A DNA stretch of 64,000 bases from Nitrospinia bacterium. GTDB taxonomy: Bacteria > Nitrospinota > Nitrospinia > Nitrospinales > JAJDAT01. The notes under the pieces are model-generated. The model made no database searches. It had not been told where the DNA came from and worked only from the letters and a program-made list of their open reading frames with translations. The stretch is from the NCBI GenBank assembly GCA_029261715.1, contig JAJDAT010000030.1:62001-126000 (forward strand), given 5' to 3'. Of the stretch, positions 1,950 through 38,305 are shown piece after piece; positions within the stretch are counted from its first letter, which is position 1; each line of letters starts with the position of its first letter. The position numbers and the translations under genes were made by a program.

Positions 1950-1957
1950 TTAAAGCT

Positions 1958-4908: not shown

Positions 4909-4912
4909 CGAT

Positions 4913-5998
4913 ATGTTCTACGAAATTTTTTACCCATTAAGCTCTGACTACTCATTCTTAAACGTTTTTCGTTATATCACGTTCCGTGCGGCATATGCAG
5001 GTTTAACGGCGTTGGCCATTTGTTTGCTTCTCGGTCCAATAGTTATACGAATGCTTAGAAAATATCAAATCAGGGAAAAAATCAGGAAAGAAGGCCCTCA
5101 ACAACACATGATTAAGTCTGGCACTCCAACTATGGGCGGACTTTTGATTCTGTTAACAGCTCTTATATCAGTTGGGCTCTGGGCAGATTTATCTAACTCT
5201 TATGTTTGGTTAGTTGCCTTTGCCGGCATGGGTTTTGGACTAATTGGCTTTATGGACGATCTCTTAAAACTAAAATCAGGAACGGGTCTAGCGGCAAGGG
5301 AAAAATTTATCTACCAAACCGTCATTAGTTTGGCCATTGGTTTTTACCTTTTGTATTTAGATCCCGCGCGCGGTTCTTACACCACAAAGCTTTACGTTCC
5401 ATTTTTTAAAGATTTTCAACCCGACCTTGGATGGGCATATTTACTTCTAGTAGTTCTCACGATAGTTGGAACCTCCAATGCCGTAAACCTTACAGACGGT
5501 TTAGACGGATTAGCTATAGGTCCAGTAATCATTGCAACATTAGCGTATACCGCAATCGTTTATGTATGTGGTCATGTTAATTTCGCTTCTTATTTAAAAA
5601 TTCAATACATCAAAGGAGCTGGCGAGTTAGCGGTTATCTGCTTAGCTGTTGTAGGAGCGGGTCTAGGGTTTTTATGGTTCAACGCCTACCCCGCCCAAAT
5701 GTTTATGGGCGATGTAGGAGCTCTGTCTTTAGGAGGCATTCTTGGAACTATCGCCGTAATCGTTAAACACGAATTATTACTTTTCTTAGTAGGCGGTATT
5801 TTTGTTATCGAAGCTTTGTCTGTCATTTTTCAAGTCGGCTATTTCAAATATTCGGGCGGTAAGCGAATGTTTAAAATGGCTCCTTTACATCATCATTTTG
5901 AGCAATTGGGTTGGGAAGAACCCAAAGTCATCGTTCGGTTTTGGATCATCGCAGTAGTGCTAGCAATGATCGGCTTAAGTACACTGAAACTGAGATGA
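4913..5998 (+). CDS. mraY: Phospho-MurNAc-pentapeptide transferase MraY
   Basis: Integral inner-membrane enzyme transferring phospho-MurNAc-pentapeptide to undecaprenyl phosphate to make lipid I. The 361-residue protein is strongly hydrophobic with about ten predicted membrane segments. Diagnostic motifs are GTPTMGG, the aspartate pair MDDLLK (DD at 115-116), NLTDGLDG (192-199) with catalytic Asp residues, FMGDVGALSLGG, and the C-terminal APLHHHFE histidine motif. It lies between murF and murD with 3-4 nt gaps. Everything expected of an active enzyme is present. Confidence 0.98.
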   Translation: MFYEIFYPLSSDYSFLNVFRYITFRAAYAGLTALAICLLLGPIVIRMLRKYQIREKIRKEGPQQHMIKSGTPTMGGLLILLTALISVGLWADLSNSYVWLVAFAGMGFGLIGFMDDLLKLKSGTGLAAREKFIYQTVISLAIGFYLLYLDPARGSYTTKLYVPFFKDFQPDLGWAYLLLVVLTIVGTSNAVNLTDGLDGLAIGPVIIATLAYTAIVYVCGHVNFASYLKIQYIKGAGELAVICLAVVGAGLGFLWFNAYPAQMFMGDVGALSLGGILGTIAVIVKHELLLFLVGGIFVIEALSVIFQVGYFKYSGGKRMFKMAPLHHHFEQLGWEEPKVIVRFWIIAVVLAMIGLSTLKLR

Positions 5999-6001
5999 CA
6001 A

Positions 6002-7339
6002 ATGGAAATTAAGGGAAAGAAAATAACGGTTATTGGTATGGGTATAACAGGAATAGAAACGGCAAATTTTTTAGCTCTAAAAGGCGCTGAAGTCGATTTG
6101 ATCGATGGTCGCCTTAGAGAAACTTTTTCGGAACTATCGTTGCCGAAAAATCCTAAAATAAAAACCATTTTTGGATCTTCTACCCCCTCTCAGGATACGG
6201 AGATGGTAGTGCTCAGTCCTGGAGTCGACATAGAATCTCCTCAACTTCAAGAAATCAAAAATCAAGGAACGCCTATCCTCGGAGAAATCGAATTAGCTTC
6301 TCGATTCAATCAAACTCCAATAATTGCCGTAACAGGCACGAACGGCAAAACTACGACCGTTACTTTAACCGGAAACATTTTGAAAAATTCTGGAATTGCA
6401 ACCTGCGTTGGAGGAAACATAGGAACGCCTTTTATCTCCCAAATAGAAAAAGATGCTCCTAGTTACCGAGTTTTAGAAATTAGCAGTTTTCAACTAGAAA
6501 CAACGAACCTATTTCGAGCTCATATAGCTTGCGTTCTTAATGTAACTCCCGACCATCTTAATCGCCATAAAACAATTGAGGATTACGCCGGATTTAAAGA
6601 ACGTATCGCCAACAATCAAACTGATGACGATTTTTTCATTCTCAACGCTGACGATCCTTTCACGTCCGCTATGAGAAAGGGAAAACCTTCAAATATTTTA
6701 TGGTTCAGCTTACGCCAAGAAGTTCAACAAGGCGCCTGGGTTCATAATGAAAAAATCTTATTCCGAATAGGAGACCAAAAAGGCGAAGTTTGCAATCTAA
6801 AAGATTTAAATTCATCTCTTAGATTACAAACGGAAAATGCTCTCGCCGCTTTTCTGCTGTCCTATCTAGCTGGAGCTAACCTTTCGACAATTCAAAAAAC
6901 ATTTAGCGAATTCTCAGGTCTTGAACATCGTCTTGAAAGGGTCGCCACCATAGGGGGAATCGACTTCATTAACGATTCTAAGGGCACCAATGTCGGGTCA
7001 ACGCAAAAAGCAATAAATAGCTTTTCCCAGCCCATCGTCTTAATTATGGGAGGCCAAGACAAAGGTGGAGATTTTTCAAGTTTGAAAACTTTACTAAAGA
7101 ATAAAGTGAAAAATCTAATTTTGATAGGCGAAGCCAAGGAAAAAATCAAACAATCGCTTAACGGAACACCGCCAAAAGAAGAGTCCGAAAGTTTAGAACA
7201 CGCAGTTCAAAAAGCTATGAAACATGCCATTCCTGGAGATGTAGTTTTATTTTCCCCCGGATGCGCAAGTTTCGACATGTTTAAAAATTATGAAGACCGC
7301 GGCAATCAGTTCAAAAAATTTGTCGGCGATTTGAAATAA
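6002..7339 (+). CDS. murD: UDP-MurNAc-L-alanine--D-glutamate ligase MurD
   Basis: Cytoplasmic ligase adding D-glutamate to UDP-MurNAc-L-Ala. The N-terminal Rossmann-like domain opens with VIGMGITGIETA, the ATP loop GTNGKTT starts at residue 112, and NVTPDHLNRH and NDSKGTNVGST mark the central and C-terminal domains; IMGGQDKGGDF and LFSPGCASFDMF are typical MurD C-terminal motifs. The length (445) is normal. The gene starts 3 nt after the mraY stop and is followed by 35 nt to ftsW, in standard dcw order. Confidence 0.97.
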   Translation: MEIKGKKITVIGMGITGIETANFLALKGAEVDLIDGRLRETFSELSLPKNPKIKTIFGSSTPSQDTEMVVLSPGVDIESPQLQEIKNQGTPILGEIELASRFNQTPIIAVTGTNGKTTTVTLTGNILKNSGIATCVGGNIGTPFISQIEKDAPSYRVLEISSFQLETTNLFRAHIACVLNVTPDHLNRHKTIEDYAGFKERIANNQTDDDFFILNADDPFTSAMRKGKPSNILWFSLRQEVQQGAWVHNEKILFRIGDQKGEVCNLKDLNSSLRLQTENALAAFLLSYLAGANLSTIQKTFSEFSGLEHRLERVATIGGIDFINDSKGTNVGSTQKAINSFSQPIVLIMGGQDKGGDFSSLKTLLKNKVKNLILIGEAKEKIKQSLNGTPPKEESESLEHAVQKAMKHAIPGDVVLFSPGCASFDMFKNYEDRGNQFKKFVGDLK

Positions 7340-7374
7340 CTTATCGCTTCCAGAATACGGAGCAAAATACCGAA

Positions 7375-8499
7375 GTGAAGATATTAAGCGAAAAATTCGA
7401 AATAAAAGAGGGGTGCGACCCCATTTTATGTTTATCGATTCTATCGCTATTACTTGTCGGCCTAGTGATGGTTTACAGCTCAAGCGCAGTTTATGCAATG
7501 GAGGAATACGGAGATCCTTATTTCTTTTTGAAACGTCAAGCTATCTGGCTGGTTCTTGGAGGAGCAATCTTATTTTATGTAAGCTCGTTCAATTATAAAA
7601 ATTTAGAAAAATTAGCCTACCCCACGATGGCTTTCACATTCATCCTCTTACTCCTGGTCATGGTTCCGCAATTGAGCAAAGAAGTAGGAGGAGCAAGACG
7701 ATGGCTTTCTATAGGAGGAATTAATTTCCAACCATCAGAATTAGCTAAATTTGCTTTAGCAATTTTTATAGCTAAATCACTGGTGAAACGAGAAAATCGA
7801 CTTTCCGATTTCATGTACGGCTATCTTCCCAAACTAATAGTTTTGGGATTCTTCTTTTTGCCAATTTTAAATCAACCTGACTTTGGAACCGCAATGATTA
7901 TTGGCGTTGTTTCATTCATGATGTTTTTCGTCGGAGGAGTTCGGCCAAAGTTTTTATTCTATTCATGTCTAACTCTATTGCCATTTTTATTCTCTGCCTT
8001 AATGGGAGCCGAATACAGAAGACGAAGAATTTTTGCCTTTCTAGATCCTTGGCAAGATCCTTCAGATGGAGGATTTCAAGCCATTCAATCTTTTTATGCA
8101 TTTGGAAGAGGCGGATTTTCCGGAACAGGACTTGGCAAAAGTTCGCAGAAACTTTTCTATCTTCCCGAAGCTCATACCGATTTCATATTTGCCATCATCG
8201 GAGAAGAGCTAGGGCTATTAGGAGCTAGCGCCATTGTTGCCTTATTTGGAGTCTTACTTTGGAGAGGATTTAGAACCGCATTGAGAGTTAAAGATACTTT
8301 TGGGTCAAATTTAGCAATTGGATTAACGATATTAATCGTTTTCCAAGCATTTACGAATATGAGTGTAGCTGTGGGACTACTTCCAACGAAGGGATTAACA
8401 TTGCCTTTTATAAGTATGGGAGGGTCTTCTCTTTTAGTAACGATGTTATGCGCCGGAGTGCTGCTAAACATATCAGAACAAGCCGCAAAAACGCGGTAA
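7375..8499 (+). CDS. ftsW: Peptidoglycan glycosyltransferase FtsW (SEDS family)
   Basis: Polytopic inner-membrane polymerase that makes septal glycan strands from lipid II together with FtsI. The 374 residues form about ten hydrophobic segments. SEDS hallmarks are GGARRWLSIGGINFQPSEL, the NQPDFGTA motif with the catalytic-type aspartate, FIFAIIGEELGLLG, and TKGLTLPFISMGGSSLL. The start is GTG at 7375, preceded by CGGAG about 12 nt upstream; no suitable ATG is nearby. The gene sits between murD and murG, which favours FtsW over the paralogue RodA. Confidence 0.95.
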   Translation: MKILSEKFEIKEGCDPILCLSILSLLLVGLVMVYSSSAVYAMEEYGDPYFFLKRQAIWLVLGGAILFYVSSFNYKNLEKLAYPTMAFTFILLLLVMVPQLSKEVGGARRWLSIGGINFQPSELAKFALAIFIAKSLVKRENRLSDFMYGYLPKLIVLGFFFLPILNQPDFGTAMIIGVVSFMMFFVGGVRPKFLFYSCLTLLPFLFSALMGAEYRRRRIFAFLDPWQDPSDGGFQAIQSFYAFGRGGFSGTGLGKSSQKLFYLPEAHTDFIFAIIGEELGLLGASAIVALFGVLLWRGFRTALRVKDTFGSNLAIGLTILIVFQAFTNMSVAVGLLPTKGLTLPFISMGGSSLLVTMLCAGVLLNISEQAAKTR

Positions 8500-8505
8500 C
8501 AAATC

Positions 8506-9621
8506 ATGCCTCTTAAGATTGTTATCGCAGGAGGCGGAACCGGGGGCCACATTTATCCCGGGATCGCATTAGCAAAGGAATTTATGAAACACGACAACGA
8601 AATTGAAATAACTTTCGTCGGCTCCAATCAGGGCCTTGAGTCCAAAGTGGTTCCTAGAGAAGGATTTAAATTTCATCCTATTTTAGCAGGCGGTCTTGTA
8701 GGAAAAAAAGGCGTCCAACGCTGGAATTCCTGGTTAAAGTTGCCTGCCAGTATCGGACAATCTTTATGTTTCTTAGTGCGTAAAAAACCTGATCTTGTTG
8801 TGGGTGTTGGTGGTTACGCCTCAGGTCCTTTAGCGCTTTCTGCCGGTTTACTTCGAATCCCATTAGTTATTCACGAACAAAATGCAATTCCTGGAGTCAC
8901 AAATAAATGGCTAGGAAAAATTGCCAATAAAATTGCTATTTCTTTCAAACAATCACGCCAATATTTTGCGCCAGACAAAGTTATCGAAACAGGAAATATG
9001 ATTCGAGAAGAAATAGGATCGTTGGGGGGTAACCAAGACAGCAAATCCGGAAATAAATTTTGCGTTCTTATCTTTGGCGGAAGCCAAGGCGCTCAATCCA
9101 TTAATAGAGCTATCTTAGAAGCCTTGCCAATTTTAAGAAATCAAAAAGACTCAATACATTTTATCCATCAGACAGGAAACAAAGATATTGAGATTGTTAA
9201 ACAAACTTATTCAGAACATGGGTTTTCAGCAGAAGTAGAACCATTTTTTTACGACATGGCTGAACAATATCGTAAAGCGTCCTTAGTCATCTGCCGCGCT
9301 GGAGCGACTTCTATTGCAGAAATCACAGCGGCTGGGAAAGTTTCAATCTTAATTCCATTTCCACATGCCGCCCATAACCATCAAGAGAAAAATGCCGAGG
9401 TATTGGATGCTGAAGAAGCTGCAAACGTTATTTATGATCGCGATTTGACCGGAGAAAAAATAGCGGAAGCAATATCTGATGGAATGGAATCACCTGAAAA
9501 ACTTAAAGAAATGGAAGCTAATAGTTCTCGACTAGGCAAAAAAGACGCGGCTCAAAAAGTCCGCGAACTATGCCTTAACCTTTTAAATGAAACCAACGAA
9601 TTGAAGGCTCGCGGTTTATAA
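8506..9621 (+). CDS. murG: Lipid II synthase MurG (GlcNAc transferase)
   Basis: Peripheral inner-membrane GT28-family glycosyltransferase that adds GlcNAc to lipid I. The N-terminal glycine-rich loop GGGTGGHIYPGIALA (from residue 9), VGVGGYASGP, the acceptor-side HEQNAIPG, and the C-terminal nucleotide-binding motifs GGSQGAQSIN and CRAGATSIAEI with HNHQEKNAE are all visible. The length (371) is typical. The gene begins 6 nt after ftsW and ends 23 nt before murC. Confidence 0.97.
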   Translation: MPLKIVIAGGGTGGHIYPGIALAKEFMKHDNEIEITFVGSNQGLESKVVPREGFKFHPILAGGLVGKKGVQRWNSWLKLPASIGQSLCFLVRKKPDLVVGVGGYASGPLALSAGLLRIPLVIHEQNAIPGVTNKWLGKIANKIAISFKQSRQYFAPDKVIETGNMIREEIGSLGGNQDSKSGNKFCVLIFGGSQGAQSINRAILEALPILRNQKDSIHFIHQTGNKDIEIVKQTYSEHGFSAEVEPFFYDMAEQYRKASLVICRAGATSIAEITAAGKVSILIPFPHAAHNHQEKNAEVLDAEEAANVIYDRDLTGEKIAEAISDGMESPEKLKEMEANSSRLGKKDAAQKVRELCLNLLNETNELKARGL

Positions 9622-9644
9622 CGACCTAAGATTTATGAGACGAA

Positions 9645-11042
9645 ATGTTTTTAGGAAAAACTCAAAAAATTCACTTTATAGGAATCGGAGGCTCCGGAAT
9701 GAGCGGCATTGCCGAAGTTCTGACTAATTTAGGTTACCAGGTTTCTGGTTCCGATCAATCTCACTCACGGGCCACCGAACGCTTGGAAAACCTAGGAGTA
9801 AAAATAAGTTATTCACACGCTCAAGAGAACGCTCGCGACGCTCATGTTGTCGTTGTTTCAAGCGCTATCAAACCGGATAACCCAGAACTTATTTCAGCAA
9901 AAAACGAAATGATCCCGGTCATTCCTCGCGCCGAGATGCTAGCCGAACTCATGCGCATGAAATACGGAATCGCTGTCGCAGGAACCCACGGGAAAACGAC
10001 AACAACGTCCTTAATAGCTTCGGTTCTTGCAGCAGGCAAACTCGACCCGACGGTAGTAAATGGAGGGCGAATTAAGAGTATTGATAGTCATGCCAAACTT
10101 GGGCAAAGCCAATTATTAGTAGCGGAAGCGGACGAAAGCGACGGATCATTTTTAAAACTATCCCCCAGCCTTGCCGTAGTCACTACTTTAGACGAAGAAC
10201 ATTTAGATCATTACAAAACGTTTGAAGCATTAAAAGACGCTTTTCTCGTTTTTCTAAATCGAATTCCATTTTTTGGGGCCGCAATTATTTGCCTAGACGA
10301 ACCGAATATTCAGTCTCTAATTCCAAAATTAGAAAAACGTTACATCACCTATGGTCTTAACAATCAAGCGGATTATCACGCAAAAAATATCAGAAACAAC
10401 GGACTCAATACAACTTTTGAAGTTTGGATTCGAAACGAAAAACTATTAGGAGAAATTACTTCCAACCTACCCGGCGAACACAACATTCGAAACACTTTGG
10501 CCGCTATAGCGACCGGGATGGAGTTGGAATTAGATTTTGACACCGCGAAAAAAGCTATCGAAGAATTTACTGGAGTACAAAGAAGATTCGAAATTTTGGG
10601 TCACTCGGATTCTTTAACTCTAGTTGACGACTACGGCCATCATCCGGCTGAAATTTCCGCAACGCTAAAAGCCGCAAGAGAAGCTTGGCCTGAGCAAAGA
10701 ATTTTGGTTGTCTTTCAGCCTCATCGATATTCAAGGACAGCCAACTTAATGGAACAGTTTTGGTCTGCATTTCACCATGCGGATTGTTTAATAATAACCG
10801 ATATTTATCCCGCTGGAGAGTCTCCTATACAAGGAGTCGACGCAAGTCGAATCGCCGAAGGTGTGAAAAAATACGGTCATAAGAACGTGAAATATTTAAA
10901 GAGTTTTGAAGAAATAGCTTCCGATTTGAAAAACACCATCGAATCGGGAGATGTCCTAGTTACCTTAGGGGCGGGAGATATTGGAGAGTTTAGTCATAGT
11001 TTAGCCTCCAAGTTATTTCCTTTGTCTCAACAACCGGATTAG
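9645..11042 (+). CDS. murC: UDP-N-acetylmuramate--L-alanine ligase MurC
   Basis: First Mur ligase, adding L-Ala to UDP-MurNAc in the cytoplasm. The sequence starts with a nucleotide-fold motif HFIGIGGSGMSGIAE, has the MurC form of the ATP loop GTHGKTTT (from residue 113), EADESDGSF, TTLDEEHLDHY, and LVDDYGHHPAEI and FQPHRYSRT in the C-terminal half. 465 residues is normal. It precedes murB, as in most dcw clusters where the two are adjacent. Confidence 0.97.
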   Translation: MFLGKTQKIHFIGIGGSGMSGIAEVLTNLGYQVSGSDQSHSRATERLENLGVKISYSHAQENARDAHVVVVSSAIKPDNPELISAKNEMIPVIPRAEMLAELMRMKYGIAVAGTHGKTTTTSLIASVLAAGKLDPTVVNGGRIKSIDSHAKLGQSQLLVAEADESDGSFLKLSPSLAVVTTLDEEHLDHYKTFEALKDAFLVFLNRIPFFGAAIICLDEPNIQSLIPKLEKRYITYGLNNQADYHAKNIRNNGLNTTFEVWIRNEKLLGEITSNLPGEHNIRNTLAAIATGMELELDFDTAKKAIEEFTGVQRRFEILGHSDSLTLVDDYGHHPAEISATLKAAREAWPEQRILVVFQPHRYSRTANLMEQFWSAFHHADCLIITDIYPAGESPIQGVDASRIAEGVKKYGHKNVKYLKSFEEIASDLKNTIESGDVLVTLGAGDIGEFSHSLASKLFPLSQQPD

Positions 11043-11050
11043 GGAAAATT

Positions 11051-12103
11051 ATGCAGGTATCATGGAAACAAAGACTCATTCGTTACGCTCACGCGAAAGA
11101 TCAATCGAAAGCGTTGGTCAGAACCCGTTGGGATTTTCCAAAAACCGTCCTCGGCCACAGGATAATTTTGAGGGAAAGCATGAACTCGAATTTGGACTGG
11201 TTACAAAAATTAAAAGGCGATGTTCTTCGTGACGAAATGCTTTACTCGCATACGTCCCTAAGAATTGGCGGTCCTGCGGATGTTTTTATTTATCCCAAAG
11301 ACCTTAACGACCTACAGATTATTTTTAAAAATGCAGGAACGCATCCTATTTTTCTATTAGGTGAAGGAACCAACTTGCTGGTAGGAGATGCCGGTATTCG
11401 AGGCATTGTCGTTTCCTTAAAGAATAGTTTTCGATCCGTTCACGAAACAGAATTACCTTCCGTCTCAGAAGAGAATCAACGTGTCTTGATTAAGGCGGAC
11501 GCTGGCGTAAAAACTTCTTACTTAGCTAAAAGAACAGCACGTCTAGGATTAACAGGATTAGAGGAACTTGCTGGAATTCCTGGTTCGATAGGAGGATCTC
11601 TCCATATGAACGCCGGAGCTGAGGGAAAAGAAATAGGAACCTTAGTTAAACAAGTAACTCTTTTGACCCCGGATGGAGATATCAAAACAATTTCAAAAGA
11701 AGATATTAAGTTTGGATATCGGTCAGCTATTTATCCGTTCCCTGTAGGGGCCATTGTCGAGGTTCAACTTGAATTGGATAAGGAAAACCCAGTAATCATA
11801 CAAAATAAAATTGCCGGTTATTTAGATAAGCGAAAGAATACTCAACCTCTTAATTTGCCAAACTCAGGCTCCGTATTTAAAAATCCGGTCGATGCTAAAG
11901 CCGGAAAGTTAATCGAAGACGCTGGATTAAAGGGATACTCCATTGGAGATGCAGGTATCTCTTTAAAACATGCAAACTTCATAGTTAACAAAGGAAATGC
12001 AACAGCTCGCGATGTTACAAAACTTATTAAACTAGTCCAAAAAGAAGTCAAAGAACATTCAGGTTATGAATTAGAAAAGGAAATTATCTTTGCGGGGATT
12101 TAA
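11051..12103 (+). CDS. murB: UDP-N-acetylenolpyruvoylglucosamine reductase MurB
   Basis: FAD enzyme reducing UDP-GlcNAc-enolpyruvate to UDP-MurNAc. FAD-domain motifs are LRIGGPAD, LGEGTNLLVGD and GIPGSIGGSLHMNAG; NSGSVFKNP (271-279) carries the proton-donating serine and LEKEI the C-terminal glutamate. The pattern FGYRSAIY followed by GSVFKNP resembles type II MurB. As called, the protein is 350 residues with a basic ~43-residue N-terminal extension. An in-frame ATG at 11180 with AGGGAA just upstream would give about 307 residues, the usual length, but the ATG at 11051 also has AGGGAA before it, so the start is unresolved. Confidence 0.94.
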   Translation: MQVSWKQRLIRYAHAKDQSKALVRTRWDFPKTVLGHRIILRESMNSNLDWLQKLKGDVLRDEMLYSHTSLRIGGPADVFIYPKDLNDLQIIFKNAGTHPIFLLGEGTNLLVGDAGIRGIVVSLKNSFRSVHETELPSVSEENQRVLIKADAGVKTSYLAKRTARLGLTGLEELAGIPGSIGGSLHMNAGAEGKEIGTLVKQVTLLTPDGDIKTISKEDIKFGYRSAIYPFPVGAIVEVQLELDKENPVIIQNKIAGYLDKRKNTQPLNLPNSGSVFKNPVDAKAGKLIEDAGLKGYSIGDAGISLKHANFIVNKGNATARDVTKLIKLVQKEVKEHSGYELEKEIIFAGI

Positions 12104-12117
12104 AAAATTAAATTTAT

Positions 12118-12139
12118 CTTGAGGTCGCCATTCCTCAAG
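12118..12139 (+). terminator. Hairpin just after murB
   Basis: CTTGAGG (12118-12124) can pair with CCTCAAG (12133-12139) around an 8-nt loop. It begins 15 nt after the murB stop and has no U-run of its own, so on its own it is a weak terminator; it may act together with the larger element immediately downstream. Confidence 0.45.
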
Positions 12140-12146
12140 ACTAAAG

Positions 12147-12210
12147 GGTCCGTTTAGGTTGCCCCTCCTTCCTTTCCCGGTCTGCTTTTTAGACCGGGGG
12201 CGGACCTTTT
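12147..12210 (+). terminator. Nested stem ending in a T-run, between murB and ddl
   Basis: GGTCCG (12147-12152) pairs with CGGACC (12201-12206), which is followed by TTTT. Inside it, CCCGGTCT (12176-12183) pairs perfectly with AGACCGGG (12191-12198) over a 7-nt loop. The arrangement resembles a Rho-independent terminator with a larger folded domain, or a cis-acting leader for the downstream small ORF and ddl. It is G+C-rich in an AT-rich gap, so it stands out. I match it to no known RNA family. Confidence 0.6.
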
Positions 12211-12243
12211 CTAAATTTAGTAAAAATCGAAAAAAGGGAAAAA

Positions 12244-12429
12244 ATGGATATTATTTTTGATAAATCGCAATTTGAAATTTTAGAGAGAAACCCTAGGCTT
12301 GAAAGCTCTGACGCCAAGGATAAAGATAAATCATTACTGAATCTGGTTTCCTATTCAATCAATCCAGATACAAAGTTTTCAATCTCGGTTACAAAAGAAG
12401 GTTTTTTCTTTGGAAACGTTGAAAAATAA
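12244..12429 (+). CDS. Small hypothetical protein (61 aa) overlapping ddl start
   Basis: A 61-codon ORF with a good ribosome site: AGGGA followed by 5 nt and ATG. Its last 20 nt overlap the TTG start of ddl, so its translation could be coupled to ddl, and the AGAAGG that serves ddl lies inside it. The peptide is acidic/polar with no membrane segment or known motif; its end reads EGFFFGNVEK. It might be a real small protein or a leader peptide; I do not recognise it. Against it, the ORF is short and could be a chance frame. Confidence 0.45.
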   Translation: MDIIFDKSQFEILERNPRLESSDAKDKDKSLLNLVSYSINPDTKFSISVTKEGFFFGNVEK

Positions 12430-13342
12430 AAAAATCGCTGTTCTGATGGGCGGAATTTCTTCAGAAAGAGAAATATCTTTACAAACTGGAAAAGCAGTTT
12501 TAAAGGCTCTTAAGCAAAAAGGCTTTAATGCTATGGATATTGATATTGATAGGAATGCCGCTGAATCAATAAAAAAAGCTACCCCAGATATTGCTTTTAT
12601 CGCTCTTCATGGAACTTTTGGAGAAGATGGAGCCATTCAGGGAATTCTTGAGTATGCAGGGATACCTTATACAGGTTCCGGTGTTTTGGGCAGCTCTCTC
12701 GCATTTGACAAGTTAATTTCAAAAGCAGTTTTAGAAAACAAAAATATTCCAACTCCAGAATATAAAGTTTTGGATAAGCAAAATTTAGATTCCCTAAGCG
12801 CTCCACCATTTATGCCCTGTGTTGTCAAACCACCGAATCAAGGCTCCAGTATTGGCATTGGGATTGTAAAAAAAATAGAGCAATGGGAACCAGCATTAGA
12901 GGAAGCTTTCAAATATTCGGATGAAATACTTGTTGAACGTTTTATCGAAGGGAAATTATTAGCTATTGGAGTCAAGCCTGGAAAATCTCTTCCCATCGTT
13001 CATATTGAACCTAAATCTGGTTTTTACGATTACGAGGCAAAATATACCGCCGGTAAAACTGAATATCACTGCCCTGCGGATTTAGATGACGAAACAACAA
13101 AAATATGCTCTCAAATTTCTTTAAATACTTATCGCGCCTTAAATGCGAGAGGCTTTGCCAGAGTTGACGTCATCTTGGATGAAAAAAACACGCCATATGT
13201 ACTGGAACTAAACACAATCCCTGGGATGACCCCAACCAGTTTATTACCTATGGCCGCTAAAAAAGACGGTCTCGATTTCGATGATCTGGTCCAAGAAATT
13301 GTTTCTACCGCTAAATTAGATAATCAAGGCAATCAATTATGA
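12410..13342 (+). CDS. ddl: D-alanine--D-alanine ligase Ddl
   Basis: Cytoplasmic ATP-grasp ligase making the D-Ala-D-Ala dipeptide used by MurF. Motifs are MGGISSEREISLQTG at the N-terminus, HGTFGEDGAIQG, KPPNQGSSIGIGIV in the ATP-grasp domain, LVERFIEGKLL, and ELNTIPGMTPTSLLP near the end. The length of 310 is usual. The only in-frame start codons at the right place are TTG (12410, or 12419); AGAAGG at 12396-12401 is 8 nt before 12410, supporting it. The stop overlaps the ftsQ start by four bases. Confidence 0.95.
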   Translation: METLKNKKIAVLMGGISSEREISLQTGKAVLKALKQKGFNAMDIDIDRNAAESIKKATPDIAFIALHGTFGEDGAIQGILEYAGIPYTGSGVLGSSLAFDKLISKAVLENKNIPTPEYKVLDKQNLDSLSAPPFMPCVVKPPNQGSSIGIGIVKKIEQWEPALEEAFKYSDEILVERFIEGKLLAIGVKPGKSLPIVHIEPKSGFYDYEAKYTAGKTEYHCPADLDDETTKICSQISLNTYRALNARGFARVDVILDEKNTPYVLELNTIPGMTPTSLLPMAAKKDGLDFDDLVQEIVSTAKLDNQGNQL

Positions 13343-14247
13343 ATTACGCAATCGCCGAAAAAAAGGGTCTTATTTTAGGGCTAAAACAAACTGTGAAACA
13401 AAGCCCCTTTCCAAAAAAGAAACGAGCTCCATTAGCCAAACTCAAGAAAAAGAAGAAGACAACACCTTTACTGGCAAATGATCTAAAAAAATCGACGGTA
13501 CAAGTCGCTTTCGAATCAATATTGATAGCCGCTTTTTGTTTCGTAGTTTTCCAAAGCTATATGTTCCTTTCACGGTCTCCACATCTTAGAATTTCTCAAA
13601 TTTCCATTGATGGAAACCAATACATGTCCGAAGCAAAAATTTTAGATTGGGCCGGACCACTCGTTGGACAAAGCATTTTGAAATTGGAATTACCACAATT
13701 GGTCGAACGACTTTATCAACACCCCTGGACCTTGGAAGCGTCGGCAGAACGAATTCTTCCAGACACTCTGCGAATTTCGATTGTCGAACGGGAACCCTTT
13801 GCCACAGCGGTATTAGATAAACATTATGTAATGGATCGGTTTGGCGTGTTGTTGGAGGAAACCAGTAAAAGCTACGACGCTTTACCCACTATCAGCGGAT
13901 TAACCGCACATAATCCTAAACCAGGAAATGCAGTCGACGGTAAATATTTAGCTCCTGGGCTTAAAGCCATGCACTATATTAATCGACTCGACTTTTTTAA
14001 GAATAATCCCGCAGATTCGATTCACTTTTTAAGTCAAGGCATAGCCCGCTACGTAAGCAAAGACAAAATGTTCGAGGTCAAAATGAATTTGCAAGAAATA
14101 GAAAAAAGTTTTGAAAGTTTAAAAATCGTTTTGGAATTACTTTCTGAGGAACACGCAAGGTCTTGTTCAATTGATTTAACGTTTAAAGATAAAGCCGTGG
14201 TTCGACAATTAGACAAACCTGTAAGAGAGATTTTTCACAGCTCATAA
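13339..14247 (+). CDS. ftsQ: Cell division protein FtsQ
   Basis: Bitopic inner-membrane divisome scaffold that binds FtsB/FtsL. A very basic cytoplasmic region (KKKRAPLAKLKKKKK) precedes one membrane segment at about residues 55-73, followed by a periplasmic POTRA domain (LRISQISIDGNQYMSEAKIL) and the FtsQ beta domain with LPDTLRISIVEREPFA and RFGVLLEE. ATGA overlap with ddl and 18 nt to ftsA place it in the operon. The family is poorly conserved, but topology, motifs and order agree. Confidence 0.93.
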   Translation: MNYAIAEKKGLILGLKQTVKQSPFPKKKRAPLAKLKKKKKTTPLLANDLKKSTVQVAFESILIAAFCFVVFQSYMFLSRSPHLRISQISIDGNQYMSEAKILDWAGPLVGQSILKLELPQLVERLYQHPWTLEASAERILPDTLRISIVEREPFATAVLDKHYVMDRFGVLLEETSKSYDALPTISGLTAHNPKPGNAVDGKYLAPGLKAMHYINRLDFFKNNPADSIHFLSQGIARYVSKDKMFEVKMNLQEIEKSFESLKIVLELLSEEHARSCSIDLTFKDKAVVRQLDKPVREIFHSS

Positions 14248-14265
14248 CCCGGGAGAACCAACTCA

Positions 14266-15498
14266 ATGTCCAAAAAAACCGATTTTCTGGTTGGCCTAGA
14301 TATTGGAACAACAAAAATCTGCTGCATCATAGGAGAAATATCCCCTAGCGGCGGCATAGATATCATTGGTCTCGGCCAGCATCCTTCAACCGGCCTTAGA
14401 AAAGGCGTAGTAGTGAATATCGACAGCACCGTTGAGTCGATTAAAAGCGCGGTAGAAGAAGCCGAATTGATGGCCGGATGCGAAATCGAATCCGCTTTTG
14501 TAGGAATTGCGGGAGGCCATATAAAAAGTATGAATAGCCACGGTATTATCGCGGTAAAAAATAAAGAAGTGACTGAGCAAGACGTAAGTCGAGTTATCGA
14601 AGCTGCTAAAGCCATCGCCATTCCTATGGATCGCGAAGTTTTACACGTTCTACCGCAAGAATTCATTATCGATAATCAAGACGGAATCAAAACGCCTTTA
14701 GGAATGGCTGGAGTTCGTCTTGAAGCCAAAGTGCATATCGTTACAGCCGCTGTCACTTCTGCTCAAAATATTGTTAAGTGTGTTAACAAAGCGGGCATTG
14801 GCGTTCAGGACATAGTCCTCGAACAACTTGCTTCAAGCGAATCAGTTCTTTCTAATGATGAAAAAGAATTAGGAGTCGCGCTCGTTGATATTGGAGGCGG
14901 AACCTCAGACGTAGCTCTATTTTATCAAGGAGCGATCAAACACACTTCTGTACTAGCGATTGCAGGAGCTCAAATGACAAACGATATCGCTATTGGTTTG
15001 AGAACGCCTAATAGCGAAGCCGAAAAGATAAAACATATGTATGGCTGCGCTTGTCCAGCGCTAGTTAAAGAAGACGAAATGATTGAAATCATAAACGTCG
15101 GAGGACGCGCTCCACAACATGTTTCTCGCAAAATATTAAGCGAAATCATTGAAGCTCGAGCAAAAGAAATGTTCGAAATTATGAACAATGAAATTGAGCT
15201 TTCAGGTTTTCACGACTTATTGTCTTCTGGAATTGTTTTGACGGGAGGCGTCTCGTGTATGGAAGGATTGTCTGAACAAGCCGAAAGAGTTTTTCAGGTA
15301 CCGGTTAGAGTCGGAATCCCTCAAGGACTTGGAGGCTTAATCGATGTTGTCAATAATCCGCGCTACGCTACTAGCGCCGGACTGATTCTTTATGGGTTGA
15401 AAAGTTTTAAAGCAGGAAACGCTCGTGAACTTAAAGGGCGTAACTTATTTGAAAAAATTCTTACGAGAATGAAAGATTGGGTAGAAGAGTTTTTTTAG
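14266..15498 (+). CDS. ftsA: Cell division protein FtsA
   Basis: Actin-fold ATPase that tethers FtsZ filaments to the inner membrane. Phosphate-1 motif VGLDIGTTKICCIIGE, the 1C insertion domain, phosphate-2 ALVDIGGGTSDVALF and adenosine motif GIVLTGGVSCMEGL are visible. The C-terminal end is FEKILTRMKDWVEEFF, an amphipathic helix suited to membrane binding. 410 residues is typical. GGGAG lies just upstream of the ATG, and the gene is followed by a 145-nt gap before ftsZ. Confidence 0.97.
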   Translation: MSKKTDFLVGLDIGTTKICCIIGEISPSGGIDIIGLGQHPSTGLRKGVVVNIDSTVESIKSAVEEAELMAGCEIESAFVGIAGGHIKSMNSHGIIAVKNKEVTEQDVSRVIEAAKAIAIPMDREVLHVLPQEFIIDNQDGIKTPLGMAGVRLEAKVHIVTAAVTSAQNIVKCVNKAGIGVQDIVLEQLASSESVLSNDEKELGVALVDIGGGTSDVALFYQGAIKHTSVLAIAGAQMTNDIAIGLRTPNSEAEKIKHMYGCACPALVKEDEMIEIINVGGRAPQHVSRKILSEIIEARAKEMFEIMNNEIELSGFHDLLSSGIVLTGGVSCMEGLSEQAERVFQVPVRVGIPQGLGGLIDVVNNPRYATSAGLILYGLKSFKAGNARELKGRNLFEKILTRMKDWVEEFF

Positions 15499-15643
15499 GA
15501 ACTTGGAGGGGAAACTTATTCCAAAGTTACTAAAACCTCTAAAAATTGTTTTTCAAACAGCGGTCAGTTTTAAATGGTCGCCAATTAATCTTTTATATAT
15601 GGCTAAGTTTTAACAGTATGTATTTATCAATGAGGAGGGAACC

Positions 15644-16828
15644 ATGGCTTTAATCGAATTTGATAATGTCAGCGAATATTCTGCTTGCATTAAGGTGTTT
15701 GGAGTTGGTGGCGGGGGCACAAACGCCGTTAACTCCATGATCAACTCCAGCATCATGGGCGTGGAGTTTATCGTTGCAAACACAGACCTTCAATCTCTTG
15801 AAATGTCTAACTGCCCCTTTAAGATTCAGATTGGAGGAGCTCTTACAAAAGGACTTGGCGCTGGCTCCAACCCTGATGTAGGTAAAAAAGCGGCTGAGGA
15901 AAATGAAGATCAAATCCGTGAAATGCTTAACGGCGCAGATATGGTATTCATTACCGCAGGTATGGGTGGAGGAACAGGAACTGGAGCCGCTCCCGTAGTT
16001 GCAAAAGCAGCAAAAGAATCGGGAGCCTTAACCGTTGGAGTAGTTACTCGACCTTTCTCTTTTGAAGGCAAACGCCGTCAAAAGCAGGCCGAAGAAGGAA
16101 TTCAAGCGTTGAAAGAAGCGGTTGACACGCTAATCGTTATTCCGAATCAAAAACTCTTGAGCTTTATCGGTAAACAAACCTCTTTTACTTCCGCTTTTTC
16201 AGCGGTAGACGACGTTCTAAGACAAGCGGTTTCTAGCATTTCAGATTTGATAGTAATTCCAGGCTTAATCAATCTTGACTTTGCCGATGTCAGCGCAATT
16301 ATGTCAAAAATGGGTAAAGCTCTTATGGGGTCGGGAACAGCTACCGGAGAAAATAGAGCTATCGACGCCGCGCAAAAAGCTATCTCTAGTCCTTTACTCG
16401 ACGATTCATCAGTAGACGGAGCGCGTGGACTTTTGATAAATGTTACTGGAGGATCAGATCTAACGCTGCATGAAGTCAGCGAAGCGGCAGAGTTGATTCA
16501 AGATAGCGCGCATGACGATGCTCATATTATTTTTGGCGCTGTTATTGACAACAATCTTGACAATGAGATGCGTGTCACAGTAATAGCGACAGGTTACGAA
16601 GAAGCTATCGAAGTTCCAGTAGAACAACCTAAAGCTATAGTTCATCAGCTAATGGATCATAAAGAAAAGAAGGAGGAGGCCGAAGCTCCGAAGGAAGAGT
16701 CCAAAAAATCTGCAGAATCTCTTAAACATTTGGCTGATTCTCTCAAAGGAGACCAAGTAGTAAATTCTTCATATACCACTTCAGTAGATTTCGACATCCC
16801 TACTTTTTTGCGTAAGCATGCCGATTAA
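15644..16828 (+). CDS. ftsZ: Cell division GTPase FtsZ
   Basis: Tubulin-like GTPase forming the Z-ring. The tubulin signature GGGTGTG is at 108-114, [12 protein letters not shown] at the N-terminal nucleotide loop, and the T7-type loop NLDFADV supplies the GTPase-activating aspartate. The C-terminus ends in a variable linker rich in Glu/Lys and the conserved tail [13 protein letters not shown] that binds FtsA. An exceptionally strong ribosome site (GAGGAGGGA) lies directly upstream, fitting its known high expression. The 145-nt gap after ftsA may carry a separate promoter, but I cannot define one. Confidence 0.98.
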
Positions 16829-33650: not shown

Positions 33651-34796
33651 ATGGTCGTAAAAAAATGTACAACTTGTAAAAATATAGTAATAGTCCCTTC
33701 TATAACTCTTCTTTGTCCTCTTCCTCTTTGCTACGGCATCTTGGAGCAAATTTACCCAATAGTTTGGAGTCCTGATATTCCGCTTTCTACCAGCTTATCC
33801 GTTATTCCACCATTTAGAGGTTCTTCAATGGGGTTGTGGAGACACTTTCCAAGTCTATCGGCCACTAACGTTATTCAATCGCTCATGTTTTCAAGATTAA
33901 AGGCTATATTAGATATAAAAGAAGAATACTCCGTCGAACTTTATACAGGACATAACCGGGGGCGTAGATTAGTCATGGAAAGGACACTACCAACCGAGCG
34001 TTTGGGTTGCGACTTAACCATGCAACCTTACGAATGGTGTTTTTCTAAAACTAAAAACTATTTTGAAGGTTCTACCCGTTTGATAATGAATCCAGGGACG
34101 AACCAAAGCCTTTTTAACGTTATGATGGCTGCTCGTCTGGAGTTTTCGCAACCAAGCTTTTTTCATTCCAGGATTAGCGGAAACATGGATTTAGCCGTAA
34201 ACTCAACATTAGATCCCACCCTATATTTAAAAGACCATCCACATTTAGCCAAACTTGCCCCAAAATTCAGAGGGCTCATAAGAGTTCAAGGCATTACTTA
34301 TGTCGCCGATCTTGATTATCCCCTATCCTTAGGGTTAGATAATTGGACTTTAAGACATCCTATTTCATCCGTTAGAGTTAAAGTAACACCCAAAATAGGC
34401 TTGTCTGTACGCGCGAATAAAGTTCAATGCGGCCCTGTGACTCTCCGAGATCCCTATATTGAATCATCAATCAATATTTTTGCATTTGACTCAAGCGACA
34501 CAAAATTCGGCGGCAATATATCGGGGAGAGGAGGACATGGTGATTTAGAACTCGCTTTGCCCAAACCTAAACCAAGAGACTTAAGAGTTGTACGAATGGT
34601 AAAAAACGTTTTACCTAAAAAAGTTCGCCTTCTGAAGGCAAATACCTATGATTATAATTTTAATTTCAGTTTTGATCGGAGCGGCGGGCTGAGTCTTCAA
34701 AATCAGTCGCCATCGCCATCGCCTTCACCACACCGATTGAAACATTTAGCGGAAATGCAACCTGGAGGAATGTACGACACTTCTAATTTTTCTTAA
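33651..34796 (+). CDS. Hypothetical protein with hydrophobic N-terminus and SP-repeat tail
   Basis: A 381-residue protein I do not recognise. It has a hydrophobic stretch near the N-terminus (IVIVPSITLLCPLPLC) that could be a membrane anchor or signal, two early CxxC cysteines (CTTCK), a long beta-rich body with repeated acidic/aromatic strands, and a short SPSPSPSP stretch followed by a polar tail. The layout is faintly reminiscent of GspN/AsmA-type periplasmic proteins, but no motif confirms this. AGAAGG upstream of the ATG supports the start. It stands alone, flanked by very AT-rich DNA. Confidence 0.6.
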   Translation: MVVKKCTTCKNIVIVPSITLLCPLPLCYGILEQIYPIVWSPDIPLSTSLSVIPPFRGSSMGLWRHFPSLSATNVIQSLMFSRLKAILDIKEEYSVELYTGHNRGRRLVMERTLPTERLGCDLTMQPYEWCFSKTKNYFEGSTRLIMNPGTNQSLFNVMMAARLEFSQPSFFHSRISGNMDLAVNSTLDPTLYLKDHPHLAKLAPKFRGLIRVQGITYVADLDYPLSLGLDNWTLRHPISSVRVKVTPKIGLSVRANKVQCGPVTLRDPYIESSINIFAFDSSDTKFGGNISGRGGHGDLELALPKPKPRDLRVVRMVKNVLPKKVRLLKANTYDYNFNFSFDRSGGLSLQNQSPSPSPSPHRLKHLAEMQPGGMYDTSNFS

Positions 34797-34843: not shown

Positions 34844-37800
34844 TTAAGTCTTTTTCGGAAAGTGTTTGGCTAAAACTTCTTTAATTTCATCGGGTTTGTA
34901 GAAATGTTCGACGAGTTCGTCGGCCTTGTAGGATTTGAAACCGACTTCCTCCGTATAGCGGAGGTGGCGCAACCCTTCGGCGTTAGCGTCAAACCGACCA
35001 TCCGGTAATAAGACTAACCAACCATTGGCGTCAAAAGAATAAAAAGAAGCAATGGTCTGGTAACTCTTTAAATCCCAAATCTGAATTCTCCCAGCGTACC
35101 CCCCGACGATTAAAATATCTGAATTGGGAATAAAAGACACTGACCGGGCTGAACCTAAATGTCCTTCCAGCGTTTTAAGACATCGCCCCGATTCCGCCTC
35201 CCACACCCGCACGGTTTTGTCATAAGAACCGCTCGCGATTTGACCGTCATGAAAAGCCACAGAATATACCCCGCCGGAATGTCCCTCCAGCGTTTTAAGA
35301 CATCGCCCCGATTCCGCCTCCCACACCCGCACGGTGTTGTCATAAGAACCGCTCGCGATTTGACCGTCATGAAAAGCCACAGAAGATACCCCGCCGGAAT
35401 GTCCCTCCAGCGTTTTAAGACATCGCCCCGATTCCGCCTCCCACACCCGCACGGTTTTGTCATAAGAACCGCTCGCGATTTGACCGTCATGAAAAGCCAC
35501 AGAATATACCCAGCCGGAATGTCCCTCCAGCGTTTTAAGACATCGCCCCGATTCCGCCTCCCACACCCGCACGGTTTTGTCATCAGAACCGCTCGCGATT
35601 TGACCGTCATGAAAAGCCACAGAATATACCCAGCCGGAATGTCCCTCTAATTCTCTCAATAGAACGCCGTCGTCCTTCCGCCATACTCTAATAACTCCAT
35701 CTCGCCCGCCAGTAACAATATAAGCGCCATCGGGGCTAAAAACGACTGACTCCACTCCATTCGCATGTCCACGTTGAACAATGGGAGCCAGATTGATAGC
35801 GTTATCAATCGTTCCCGCCTCTCTGGAGGTAAATCCAGCAAGCCCTCGACTCTCCTGAGTTTTTGCCGAATCCAGATCCACTCCTTCCAAATTACAATCC
35901 TCAAAAACACTGCCAATTAAATCTGCTTCTTGAAATTTAGCATCCGAAAAATCCGCTTTATCAAAATAAGCGTACCGAAAATTCAACCCTTGTAATTGCG
36001 CGTTCTGCAATTGCATCTCTTTTGGGAGAGTATTTTTTAACTCATTTAATAACTCATCAGGTCGATCAATCTCGCGCTCCATTCCTAATCGATGACGAAC
36101 TGTCCAATACAAAACCTGCAATGCGTTTTCGGAAACATTCGAAAGGTAACCATCCTGCAATCGTTTTTGTAACAAACCAGTCAATTCGTCGTTTGCATCA
36201 ATTTGCGATAAGAAAAAAATCACTTTAGGGTTCAAAATTGGTAGATCAAGAACTTTCAAAGGATTTTTTGGATATTCACTTTCTTGAATATCTCGAAAGA
36301 TTTTTCTCGCTAAAAAATATTCACTAAACGATTTATGAATGAACGAAAAGTTTCCTTCGTCATCGCGATTTAAAAACGAAGCCGCCTGCATGTCTCCGGC
36401 AACGTCATCAGGTTTTTCCGGTCCCACACGAATCTTTTTTTCGGAAAGTAGCTCATTTATAAAAGAAATGGTTTCTTTGTAATGGATCGAATCAGTCTCT
36501 TCCGTCCAGAATTTCAAAGCGAGGTGCAACATCAACTCCAACCGGACATCCTTTTCCAACATACGTTCGTTTTCTTTTTCCCTTTGCACCCAAATGTCGG
36601 TGAATATTTTGTACAACCCGGCGGCATTCAGATTTTTTTCTTTTAAGGAATTCTCTCGCAATAACTTTGCAATCATCTCTAACAACAATGGTTGTGTAGA
36701 TAATTGTTCCAAATTATATATACCCTTGATCGTTTGCCAATCTTCCTGGCAAGAACCTGTTCCCGCCTTTTCCAAGTAATCCAGAATTTCCTTTTCATCA
36801 AACTTCTGCAAGTAAACCGCATTAGCGCCGGAAATTTTCCGCAAGCGTTCATAGAGAACCGTTTCTGTTTCCGCAAGAATAGAACTCTTTCCCGTTAACA
36901 AAGCCTCTTCATCGCTATTTTTGAAATAATGCGAACGACATGTTAAAACGCTTTTCCATCCGTTAAAAGCCGCCTGCGAAAGTTCGCTAAAATTGGAACA
37001 AGACACTTCCCAACGCACTCGGTCGGCCATTTCGTCGAACGCGTCGAAAAAAACTACTACTTTTCCAAGTTTCGCTAGTAAATTGAACCCCTCAAAATCA
37101 AACTTTTTGAATCCCTGGCTTTCGAAATGCGCGTCGACTACACTTTTTAGCGTAATAGCCTTTTTAATAACTTTGAGCGGGATATGAATTGGCGCGGGAT
37201 GTCTTACTGGATCTTCCAAAAAACTTTTCGCCATGTGGTATGACAAAAACCGAGTCAACGTTGTCTTCCCAGTGCCTAAATCTCCAAGTAACGTTAAAAG
37301 CTTACCTTCAGAGTTACCCAGCCATTTTGAAAAATGCTCAAGCGCTGGAACATTTTCAGAACCTCCCTCCAGTTTAATTTTGGGTCTCACATAGCAATCT
37401 TTACCACTCCATTGATCGACCATGAATTTTTCAAAATTGAATTTCAATCGTTCGGAATATTTTTCTAAAGGGGCTAACGTTTGTAAAAGATTGGCATAAT
37501 GTATGCTGTTGATATCGTTTTCCCTCAACCGCTCCAAAGCATTTTCATCACATCCCTGTCTGTATAATAAAGTCCACTGGCTTCGCGCATTTCTCGCAAG
37601 AATTTCCGCTTTTTTCTCTAAAAACCGTTCGACATCTTTCAAAGTAACCCAGTCTTCCTGGCAAATAACCATTCCTTTAAATTCAAAACCAGGTTCTGTT
37701 CTCTCAATCTCTATACATTGAAATCCAACATCAGAAAATATAGCCTCCAGTTGAAAGCCTTTAGCTTCATAATAAGCCAAAGCTTCGTTTAGAAAGTACC

Positions 37801-38305
37801 GATCACTTGTACTCTTCTTTTCATTTTGAAAAAGCCTTCTGGTAATAGAGTCACTAAACTGATCGCTTTCGACCTTAAAGTTTTCTCGCTTTTGAGTTGG
37901 AAGATCTAAAGCTTCTATCAACTTTCTCAAATTAAAATGAAAATCCACCTCTTTTGTAAAGTCGATGCGGCTTAAAGCATCGAATAACGGGAGTAATTCA
38001 CACTCTTCTTTGAGTAAGGGAATGAGAGAACGTTCACGGCTTAAAGAGTCGGAATGGAGGCTGGCAAAGCTTTCGGCTTGCGCAAAATCTTTAGTTAAAT
38101 AAATAGGTGAAAAAACTACCGCCATTTTTCTCGAAAGCTTGATTCCTTCGTTGATCTTTTTTTGAACGTTATCTCCAGGCGGAATTCTCCAGTCGTCGAA
38201 CCAAACTTTAACGCCATTGTCGCGCAAAGAATCCGCTAGTTTGGTTGCAAAACCTTTATCTTCACTGGCGTAACTTATGAATACATCGTATTGGTAGTTT
38301 CGCAT
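34844..38305 (-). CDS. TIR-NACHT-pentapeptide-WD40 NLR-like protein
   Basis: A 1153-residue multi-domain protein. Residues 1-~135 are a TIR domain (YDVFISYASEDKGFATKLAD, with Glu78 at the position of the TIR NADase glutamate). An unassigned helical/alpha-beta region follows (about 170-290, perhaps nuclease-like). A NACHT/STAND ATPase has Walker A GDLGTGKTT (341-349) and Walker B VVVFFDAFDEM (416-426), then a helical arm. Pentapeptide-like repeats lie at ~763-812, six WD40 units at ~849-1090, and a C-terminal DGRFDANAEGLRHL segment also found in bacterial caspase/WD40 proteins. This is the architecture of bacterial NLR-type defence proteins: ligand sensing by WD40, oligomerisation by NACHT, NAD cleavage by TIR. 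No phage-defence neighbours are present. Confidence 0.9.
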   Translation of the reverse strand: MRNYQYDVFISYASEDKGFATKLADSLRDNGVKVWFDDWRIPPGDNVQKKINEGIKLSRKMAVVFSPIYLTKDFAQAESFASLHSDSLSRERSLIPLLKEECELLPLFDALSRIDFTKEVDFHFNLRKLIEALDLPTQKRENFKVESDQFSDSITRRLFQNEKKSTSDRYFLNEALAYYEAKGFQLEAIFSDVGFQCIEIERTEPGFEFKGMVICQEDWVTLKDVERFLEKKAEILARNARSQWTLLYRQGCDENALERLRENDINSIHYANLLQTLAPLEKYSERLKFNFEKFMVDQWSGKDCYVRPKIKLEGGSENVPALEHFSKWLGNSEGKLLTLLGDLGTGKTTLTRFLSYHMAKSFLEDPVRHPAPIHIPLKVIKKAITLKSVVDAHFESQGFKKFDFEGFNLLAKLGKVVVFFDAFDEMADRVRWEVSCSNFSELSQAAFNGWKSVLTCRSHYFKNSDEEALLTGKSSILAETETVLYERLRKISGANAVYLQKFDEKEILDYLEKAGTGSCQEDWQTIKGIYNLEQLSTQPLLLEMIAKLLRENSLKEKNLNAAGLYKIFTDIWVQREKENERMLEKDVRLELMLHLALKFWTEETDSIHYKETISFINELLSEKKIRVGPEKPDDVAGDMQAASFLNRDDEGNFSFIHKSFSEYFLARKIFRDIQESEYPKNPLKVLDLPILNPKVIFFLSQIDANDELTGLLQKRLQDGYLSNVSENALQVLYWTVRHRLGMEREIDRPDELLNELKNTLPKEMQLQNAQLQGLNFRYAYFDKADFSDAKFQEADLIGSVFEDCNLEGVDLDSAKTQESRGLAGFTSREAGTIDNAINLAPIVQRGHANGVESVVFSPDGAYIVTGGRDGVIRVWRKDDGVLLRELEGHSGWVYSVAFHDGQIASGSDDKTVRVWEAESGRCLKTLEGHSGWVYSVAFHDGQIASGSYDKTVRVWEAESGRCLKTLEGHSGGVSSVAFHDGQIASGSYDNTVRVWEAESGRCLKTLEGHSGGVYSVAFHDGQIASGSYDKTVRVWEAESGRCLKTLEGHLGSARSVSFIPNSDILIVGGYAGRIQIWDLKSYQTIASFYSFDANGWLVLLPDGRFDANAEGLRHLRYTEEVGFKSYKADELVEHFYKPDEIKEVLAKHFPKKT
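35161..35640 (-). repeat. Four 120-bp near-identical WD40 repeats
   Basis: Four head-to-tail copies (35161-35280, 35281-35400, 35401-35520, 35521-35640) differ at only five alignment positions: 35165, 35272/35392 versus 35512/35632, 35336, 35385 and 35584. Each encodes one 40-residue WD40 unit (EGHS...VRVWEAESGRCLKTL). Such identity at DNA level means recent expansion or gene conversion. Four of the five differences change the amino acid, at repeat residues 6, 8, 22 and 24. The length of 120 bp keeps all three frames open, which produces long spurious ORFs on both strands. Confidence 0.97.

Follow-up and report, generated by a model that had tools for sequence, protein, structure and literature searches.

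Why do the WD40 blades of one bacterial receptor gene, otherwise nearly identical, differ from each other at only four positions, and do these positions form a recognition surface that is being diversified, as a sequence-only reading of the locus had proposed? In the window, by which we mean the whole stretch of 64,000 nucleotides that was analysed, we described the gene and its repeats, and we compared them with a paralog, with homologs and with other bacterial WD40 genes. Beyond the sequence-only reading, this brought out the complete TIR-NACHT receptor, its paralog in the genome and a doubtful number of repeats. The explanation that we consider best, and likely to be right, is a stand-alone NLR-type defence receptor with a recently amplified propeller and a diversifying top face.

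The receptor gene lies at 34844..38305 on the minus strand, as do all its features below, and encodes a protein of 1153 aa with a TIR domain, a degenerate Mrr-like region, a NACHT-type STAND ATPase, pentapeptide repeats and WD40 repeats (open reading frame; Pfam TIR_2, Pentapeptide and WD40). The best PDB relative of the TIR domain (aa 8-129, 37919..38284; TIR_2 E=9.8e-27) is 7uxr, a TIR domain protein. Its Glu78 is invariant in an alignment of six homologous sequences from several phyla and is, by analogy with known TIR NADases, a candidate catalytic residue. Next comes the remnant of an Mrr-type PD-(D/E)XK nuclease region (about aa 167-279, 37469..37808; Mrr_cat in homologs, alignment A4). 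The ATPase, of approximate extent (36550..37290), has a Walker A motif, GDLGTGKTT (aa 341-349), and a Walker B-like motif, FFDAFDE (aa 419-425), both conserved in six homologs; the window protein reaches no curated NACHT cut-off, and PF05729 is passed by the homolog L049 alone. Pentapeptide repeats (about aa 765-803, 35897..36013; PF00805 E=6.3e-12) are followed by a divergent first WD unit (aa 846-886, 35648..35770), four near-identical WD units of 40 aa and 120 bp each (aa 887-1046, 35168..35647) and a divergent last one (about aa 1047-1085, 35051..35167), the two divergent units being found with a repeat HMM. The C-terminal tail (NGWLVLLPDGRFDA...LRHLRYTE, 34847..35050) is conserved and common to the window protein, the paralog and the homologs (alignment A2), and in an AlphaFold2 model it forms two short strands and then helices of low confidence. 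With an N-terminal TIR_2 effector, a NACHT ATPase with Walker A and B motifs and C-terminal WD40 repeats, the protein is by its sequence features a bacterial NLR, related to the immune sensors of animals and fungi.

The source genome (5.33 Mb, 52 contigs) contains a paralog of the receptor which is 52% identical to the window protein from TIR through WD40. The start of contig 51 cuts the 5' part of this paralog within the WD40 array, and the end of contig 30 likewise cuts, within the array, a fragment with WD40 repeats and tail that is 66% identical to the window. We take the two fragments to be probably one gene. The pieces are L002:1-2916 and L003:1492-2439, and the contig ends overlap by only 28 bp. 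Homologs with 36-43% identity are found in Blastocatellia, Calditrichaceae and Phycisphaerae MAGs. At E<=1e-60 the gene is absent from 76 of the 77 genomes of the window's class, the sole match being its own genome, and the viral contigs scanned hold no relative of the receptor family. Such a patchy distribution is as expected of defence genes. The gene is in no evident defence island, its neighbours being ABC transporter genes and an HD-domain gene. Elsewhere in the window, a 381-aa plus-strand ORF without a Pfam match (33651-34796) is convergent with the receptor gene, and at 201-16828 a run of about a dozen plus-strand ORFs resembles a cell-wall/division (dcw) cluster in sizes and order.

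The homologs also inform on the likely effector. In L047 and L049 Mrr_cat is above the cut-off between TIR and NACHT, and the acidic D and the ExK motif are visible (alignment A4). The window protein and its paralog retain the region, but both the acidic residue and the ExK motif are missing from it (alignment A4), and in the Pfam profile search neither the window protein nor L002 reaches the Mrr_cat cut-off. In L047 (5995-8600) and L049 (5992-8600) the Mrr-type nuclease is apparently intact. To judge by these sequences, the ancestor may have carried both TIR and an Mrr nuclease as effectors. Since Glu78 is kept in all six sequences while the Mrr residues are lost here, the TIR domain would be the likelier effector in the window protein, by analogy with known TIR NADases.

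Tandem Repeats Finder detects a single array in the window (35158-35647; period 120, 4.1 copies, 98% match), which lies at the 3' end of the receptor gene and can be read in frame from the minus strand. DNA identity among the four 40-aa units is 96.7-99.2%, matching the roughly 97-99% that had been read from the letters alone. They differ at exactly four nucleotides, with four replacement and no silent differences. At unit position 6 a T/G difference (35632; copies 35512, 35392, 35272) gives the codons TGG/TGG/GGG/GGG and the residues W/W/G/G. At position 8 it is A/C (35625; copies 35505, 35385, 35265), with TAT/TAT/TCT/TAT and Y/Y/S/Y. Position 22 has G/T (35584; copies 35464, 35344, 35224), which results in GAT/TAT/TAT/TAT and D/Y/Y/Y, and position 24 has A/C (35576; copies 35456, 35336, 35216), with AAA/AAA/AAC/AAA and K/K/N/K. 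The codons confirm the earlier count of four residue-changing sites out of five, W/G, Y/S, D/Y and K/N. The fifth site is indeed silent (Glu, GAA/GAG; T at 35165 versus C at 35285, 35405 and 35525), and it is the first codon of the following divergent unit at the array edge, outside the four-unit comparison. All four differences (35272, 35385, 35584, 35336 and their equivalents) are transversions of the A:T to C:G type, unlike the mixed mutation spectra of the paralog and homolog arrays. This uniformity in the window could be due to chance, or to a sequencing or mutational bias.

The positions of these sites are not arbitrary with respect to known WD40 receptors. The hypervariable columns of the fungal repeats are 10, 11, 12, 14, 30, 32 and 39 (PMC12222747). 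When we allow for two loop residues missing from the 40-aa unit, these columns map to unit positions 4, 5, 6, 8, 22, 24 and 31, and the variable sites of the window fall on HNWD columns 12, 14, 30 and 32. The correspondence with HET-D and HET-E that had been proposed from the spacings is thereby upheld. For sites placed uniformly, the probability that all four replacement sites land in the fungal set of 7 out of 40 is P=3.8e-4. A second rule is independent of the fungal columns. Wu 2012 (PMC3419727), from which we also took the side-chain exposure of the variable sites, defines the top-face hotspots R1-2, R1 and D-1 relative to two landmarks, the V-R1-R2-V motif and the Asp of the tetrad. Applied to the unit EGHSGWVYSVAFHDGQIASGSDDKTVRVWEAESGRCLKTL, this places the hotspots at positions 6, 8 and 22, with position 24 directly after the Asp. 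Sites 6, 8 and 22 are therefore contact positions by this rule as well, and as three of the four sites are at published top-face positions, they are not expected to be buried in the propeller.

It is questionable whether the assembled array is complete. The repeat HMM finds 14 WD units in L047 and in L049, as well as in 11 of the 13 plasmid-record receptors (the other two have 13 and 15), and 7 units in two smaller proteins, compared with 6 in the window and 3 + 6 around the contig break in the paralog. In the AlphaFold2 model of the window WD40 region (pTM 0.80), which matches PkwA and WDR5, there are six four-stranded blades plus the two short tail strands, so that a partial seventh blade is possible; L047 and L049 have the same tail on top of their 14 units. 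The array could thus be an assembly artefact, in which short reads of a longer and more diverse array were collapsed or joined into a chimera. Short-read assemblies are unreliable on such arrays (PMC12222747), and the two contig ends that cut the paralog both lie within its own array. Against this, the longest exact repeat in the array is 106 bp, short enough to be resolved with long k-mers or 150-base reads, the reading frame is unbroken, and the paralog has the same four columns with more diverged blades. Furthermore, collapse alters the number of units but cannot create replacements at contact sites, and an artefact of this kind, to which we give slightly better than even chances, is compatible with our favoured explanation. 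We consider it somewhat likelier that WD units are missing from the assembly than that they are all present, and the true array is probably larger, with 7 or 14 WD units in total, the numbers that suit a closed propeller, rather than 6.

The unit differences alone could also have a simpler origin. Blades may have been amplified recently without any special selection, and the changes may have fallen on positions which any WD40 tolerates. Blade identity is 97-99% within the window gene compared with 68-78% against the blades of the paralog, as expected of a recently amplified propeller of the WRAP type, which the favoured explanation assumes as well. Recent amplification is also the published and favoured explanation for bacterial propellers (PMC9218822). 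The near-identity of the repeats, which had been read as homogenisation, is real, but homogenisation is indistinguishable here from such amplification. In addition, the four columns rank 2, 3, 4 and 6 of 42 by entropy, which places them near the top of all WD40 columns in variability, and four replacement to no silent changes has a probability of about 35% under neutrality, so that nothing on selection follows from the window alone.

We parsed the repeats of 22 bacterial WD40 genes, which comprise the family, five non-receptor proteins and 13 NB-ARC/NACHT receptors taken from plasmid records. Close repeats (<=20 nt apart) were joined in minimum spanning trees, and the changes along these trees were counted, with numbers of sites after Nei-Gojobori. 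The choice of the four columns, based on the window and the fungal papers, preceded any counting in the test set, and the comparison columns (1, 2, 3, 4, 7, 24, 40 and 41) were picked by entropy over the same repeats. At columns 12, 14, 30 and 32 pN/pS is 2.07 (P=8e-4; ten arrays with usable pairs, window excluded), a value to be read with the caveat that spanning-tree changes are not fully independent, that recombination between blades is ignored and that only ten genes contribute. In the same ten arrays the eight comparably variable columns have a pN/pS of 0.76 (Fisher 1.6e-5 against the four columns). The four-column ratio is 1.8-2.3 when single genes are left out and 1.3-3.1 in a bootstrap over genes, with a bootstrap P(ratio<=1) of 0.0006. 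The cut-off of 20 nt is one of three that were tried, the all-gene ratios at 12, 20 and 30 nt being 2.2, 2.1 and 1.6. The five columns with the highest replacement rates are 12, 14, 11, 30 and 32. We also tried the seven fungal columns as one group, which was weaker than the core four, and columns 10, 11 and 39 jointly have a pN/pS below 1.

Tolerance alone would give at most about 1 in both column sets, and the value of 2.07 consequently counts against amplification without selection, which we regard as unlikely. For bacterial arrays taken as a class, the data support selection at the four columns. Broken down by group at the 20-nt cut-off, the four-column ratio is 3.1 (P=0.006) in the family and 2.2 (P=0.007) in the non-receptor proteins. 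In the 13 other NLR arrays the ratio at 20 nt is 1.12 and the excess over neutrality is not significant, because few blades are close enough to be counted. In the paralog taken by itself, 18 replacements stand against zero silent changes at these columns, which suggests diversifying selection there. For the window gene itself, with too few changes of its own, we infer selection from the class. The claim of a diversified recognition surface therefore holds at the level of the class (2.07 versus 0.76) and does not follow from the window on its own. The array copies of Tolypothrix PCC 7712 and PCC 7601 are the same protein and hence uninformative as a strain comparison.

What did not survive is the idea that the pattern is a signature of hypervariable receptors. 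Caspase-, kinase- and peptidase-linked WD40s show the same column pattern as strongly as receptors do. The pattern thus belongs to bacterial WD40 blades of recent duplication in general, and alone it is no indicator of immunity. Among the non-receptor proteins are a Haliscomenobacter WD40 protein, a kinase and a caspase (L060, L061 and L073), in which the same four columns vary. One might then ask whether the window protein is a structural or signalling scaffold, with propeller faces that vary so as to match different partners in the host. Hu 2017 (PMC5587647) takes diverse hotspots as an adaptation to different partners, the columns are shared with the caspase-, kinase- and peptidase-linked proteins, and no defence island is apparent. 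However, the protein joins TIR and NACHT on one chain, the family is patchily distributed and the homologs have the Mrr nuclease region, all of which suggests conflict systems, and we find the scaffold explanation rather improbable.

A diversity-generating retroelement (DGR) or another targeted mutator as the source of the variants can be given almost no credence, even though DGRs are a source of diversity in NACHT-linked targets of other bacteria (PMC10907252) and this genome has one reverse transcriptase. We rejected it on the bases at the sites, the absent template and the type of reverse transcriptase: on neither strand do all four sites include adenine among their bases, the genome contains no template copy of the repeat beyond the window and paralog arrays, and the reverse transcriptase is encoded on a different contig by an ORF of 573 aa that extends far at its C-terminus. 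The reverse transcriptase of a DGR is expected to be smaller than this ORF. In the 573-aa protein (L075:1363-3084), which matches Pfam RVT_1 only, the C-terminal motifs LCEGVSDR and LLTDND look Toprim-like. From its sequence it is possibly a retron- or DRT-type defence gene.

The favoured explanation, a defence receptor with a recently amplified and diversifying propeller, leads to the following mechanism, in which ligand, phage defence and NADase activity are proposed by analogy with known systems. The top face of the WD40 propeller would sense a target protein, most likely one derived from a phage. The NACHT ATPase would then oligomerise in an ATP-driven step, and the TIR domain would destroy NAD+ or make a signal, leading to growth stop or cell death. 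The propeller would be a recent product of tandem amplification from a single 40-aa blade, with unequal exchange perhaps keeping it uniform, and selection would alter four top-face residues per blade (columns 12, 14, 30 and 32) with the scaffold conserved. More broadly, the TIR-NACHT-WD40 family across phyla might be the prokaryotic counterpart of the fungal hypervariable NLRs, an evolving repertoire in which the propeller is re-amplified and the four columns diversify without a dedicated mutator; we put this forward tentatively, leaning slightly against it. If the mechanism is true, bacteria and fungi evolve recognition alike, with a uniform propeller scaffold and four variable contact residues per blade, and the four-column rule would offer a quick and testable way to read likely specificity residues from bacterial WD40 NLRs. 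It also carries a warning, as short-read assemblies of genes of this kind lose the repeat number and probably the specificity too.

Among known systems, the fungal HNWD genes (HET-D, HET-E and HET-R of Podospora anserina) share with the window gene a TIR-related effector, NACHT and near-identical WD40 repeats (PMC12222747, PMC4986451), as well as the variable columns 12, 14, 30 and 32. They differ in having 42-aa repeats, 10-12 of them near-identical, and a HET effector domain (PMC12222747, PMC4986451), which was not found in the window protein, where TIR_2 takes that place. Allelic recognition and repeat-number polymorphism are proven for HNWD (PMC12222747, PMC4986451), whereas the window gene is known from one genome. 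The window gene may work like an HNWD gene but is not one, and the likeness is one of mechanism, which we do not state as common descent of the arrays.

The bNACHT/Avs proteins, which are antiphage proteins, resemble the window protein in domain layout, with a central NACHT/STAND ATPase flanked by an effector at the N-terminus and a sensor at the C-terminus (PMC12169576, PMC10907252). No PADLOC model spans the full TIR-NACHT-WD40 protein. Half of the highly repetitive WD40s of Hu et al. 2017 (PMC5587647) are bacterial. They resemble the window array in having at least 70% internal identity and diverse sites that are interaction hotspots. The survey names neither TIR nor NACHT and, in the text read, contains no four-column pN/pS.

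The closest bacterial relative in kind is WRAP, Npun_R6612 of Nostoc punctiforme, a STAND ATPase with 14 near-identical blades and 10 mutations, none of them silent (PMC9218822, PMC6805158). A role in prokaryotic innate immunity with rapid turnover has been proposed for it (PMC9218822, PMC6805158; Dunin-Horkawicz 2014 as cited there). Both proteins have a STAND ATPase, recently amplified near-identical WD40 blades at the C-terminus, replacement-only changes and a link to TIR. By sequence, the best PDB match of the window WD40 region is the WRAP structure, 2YMU, which is also the best match of L047 by fold, the latter from a poor propeller model (pTM 0.47) that served as a lead only. In Npun_R6612 the TIR domain is on a second STAND protein of the operon, whereas the window protein has it on its own chain and, unlike WRAP, has a dead nuclease region, pentapeptides, 6 WD units instead of 14 and a 40-aa blade. 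Near-identical blades with replacement-only changes on bacterial STAND proteins have thus been published before, and the four-column pattern in bacteria is known but little measured. New here are the quantified test of the four columns in bacteria and the TIR-Mrr-NACHT-WD40 family.
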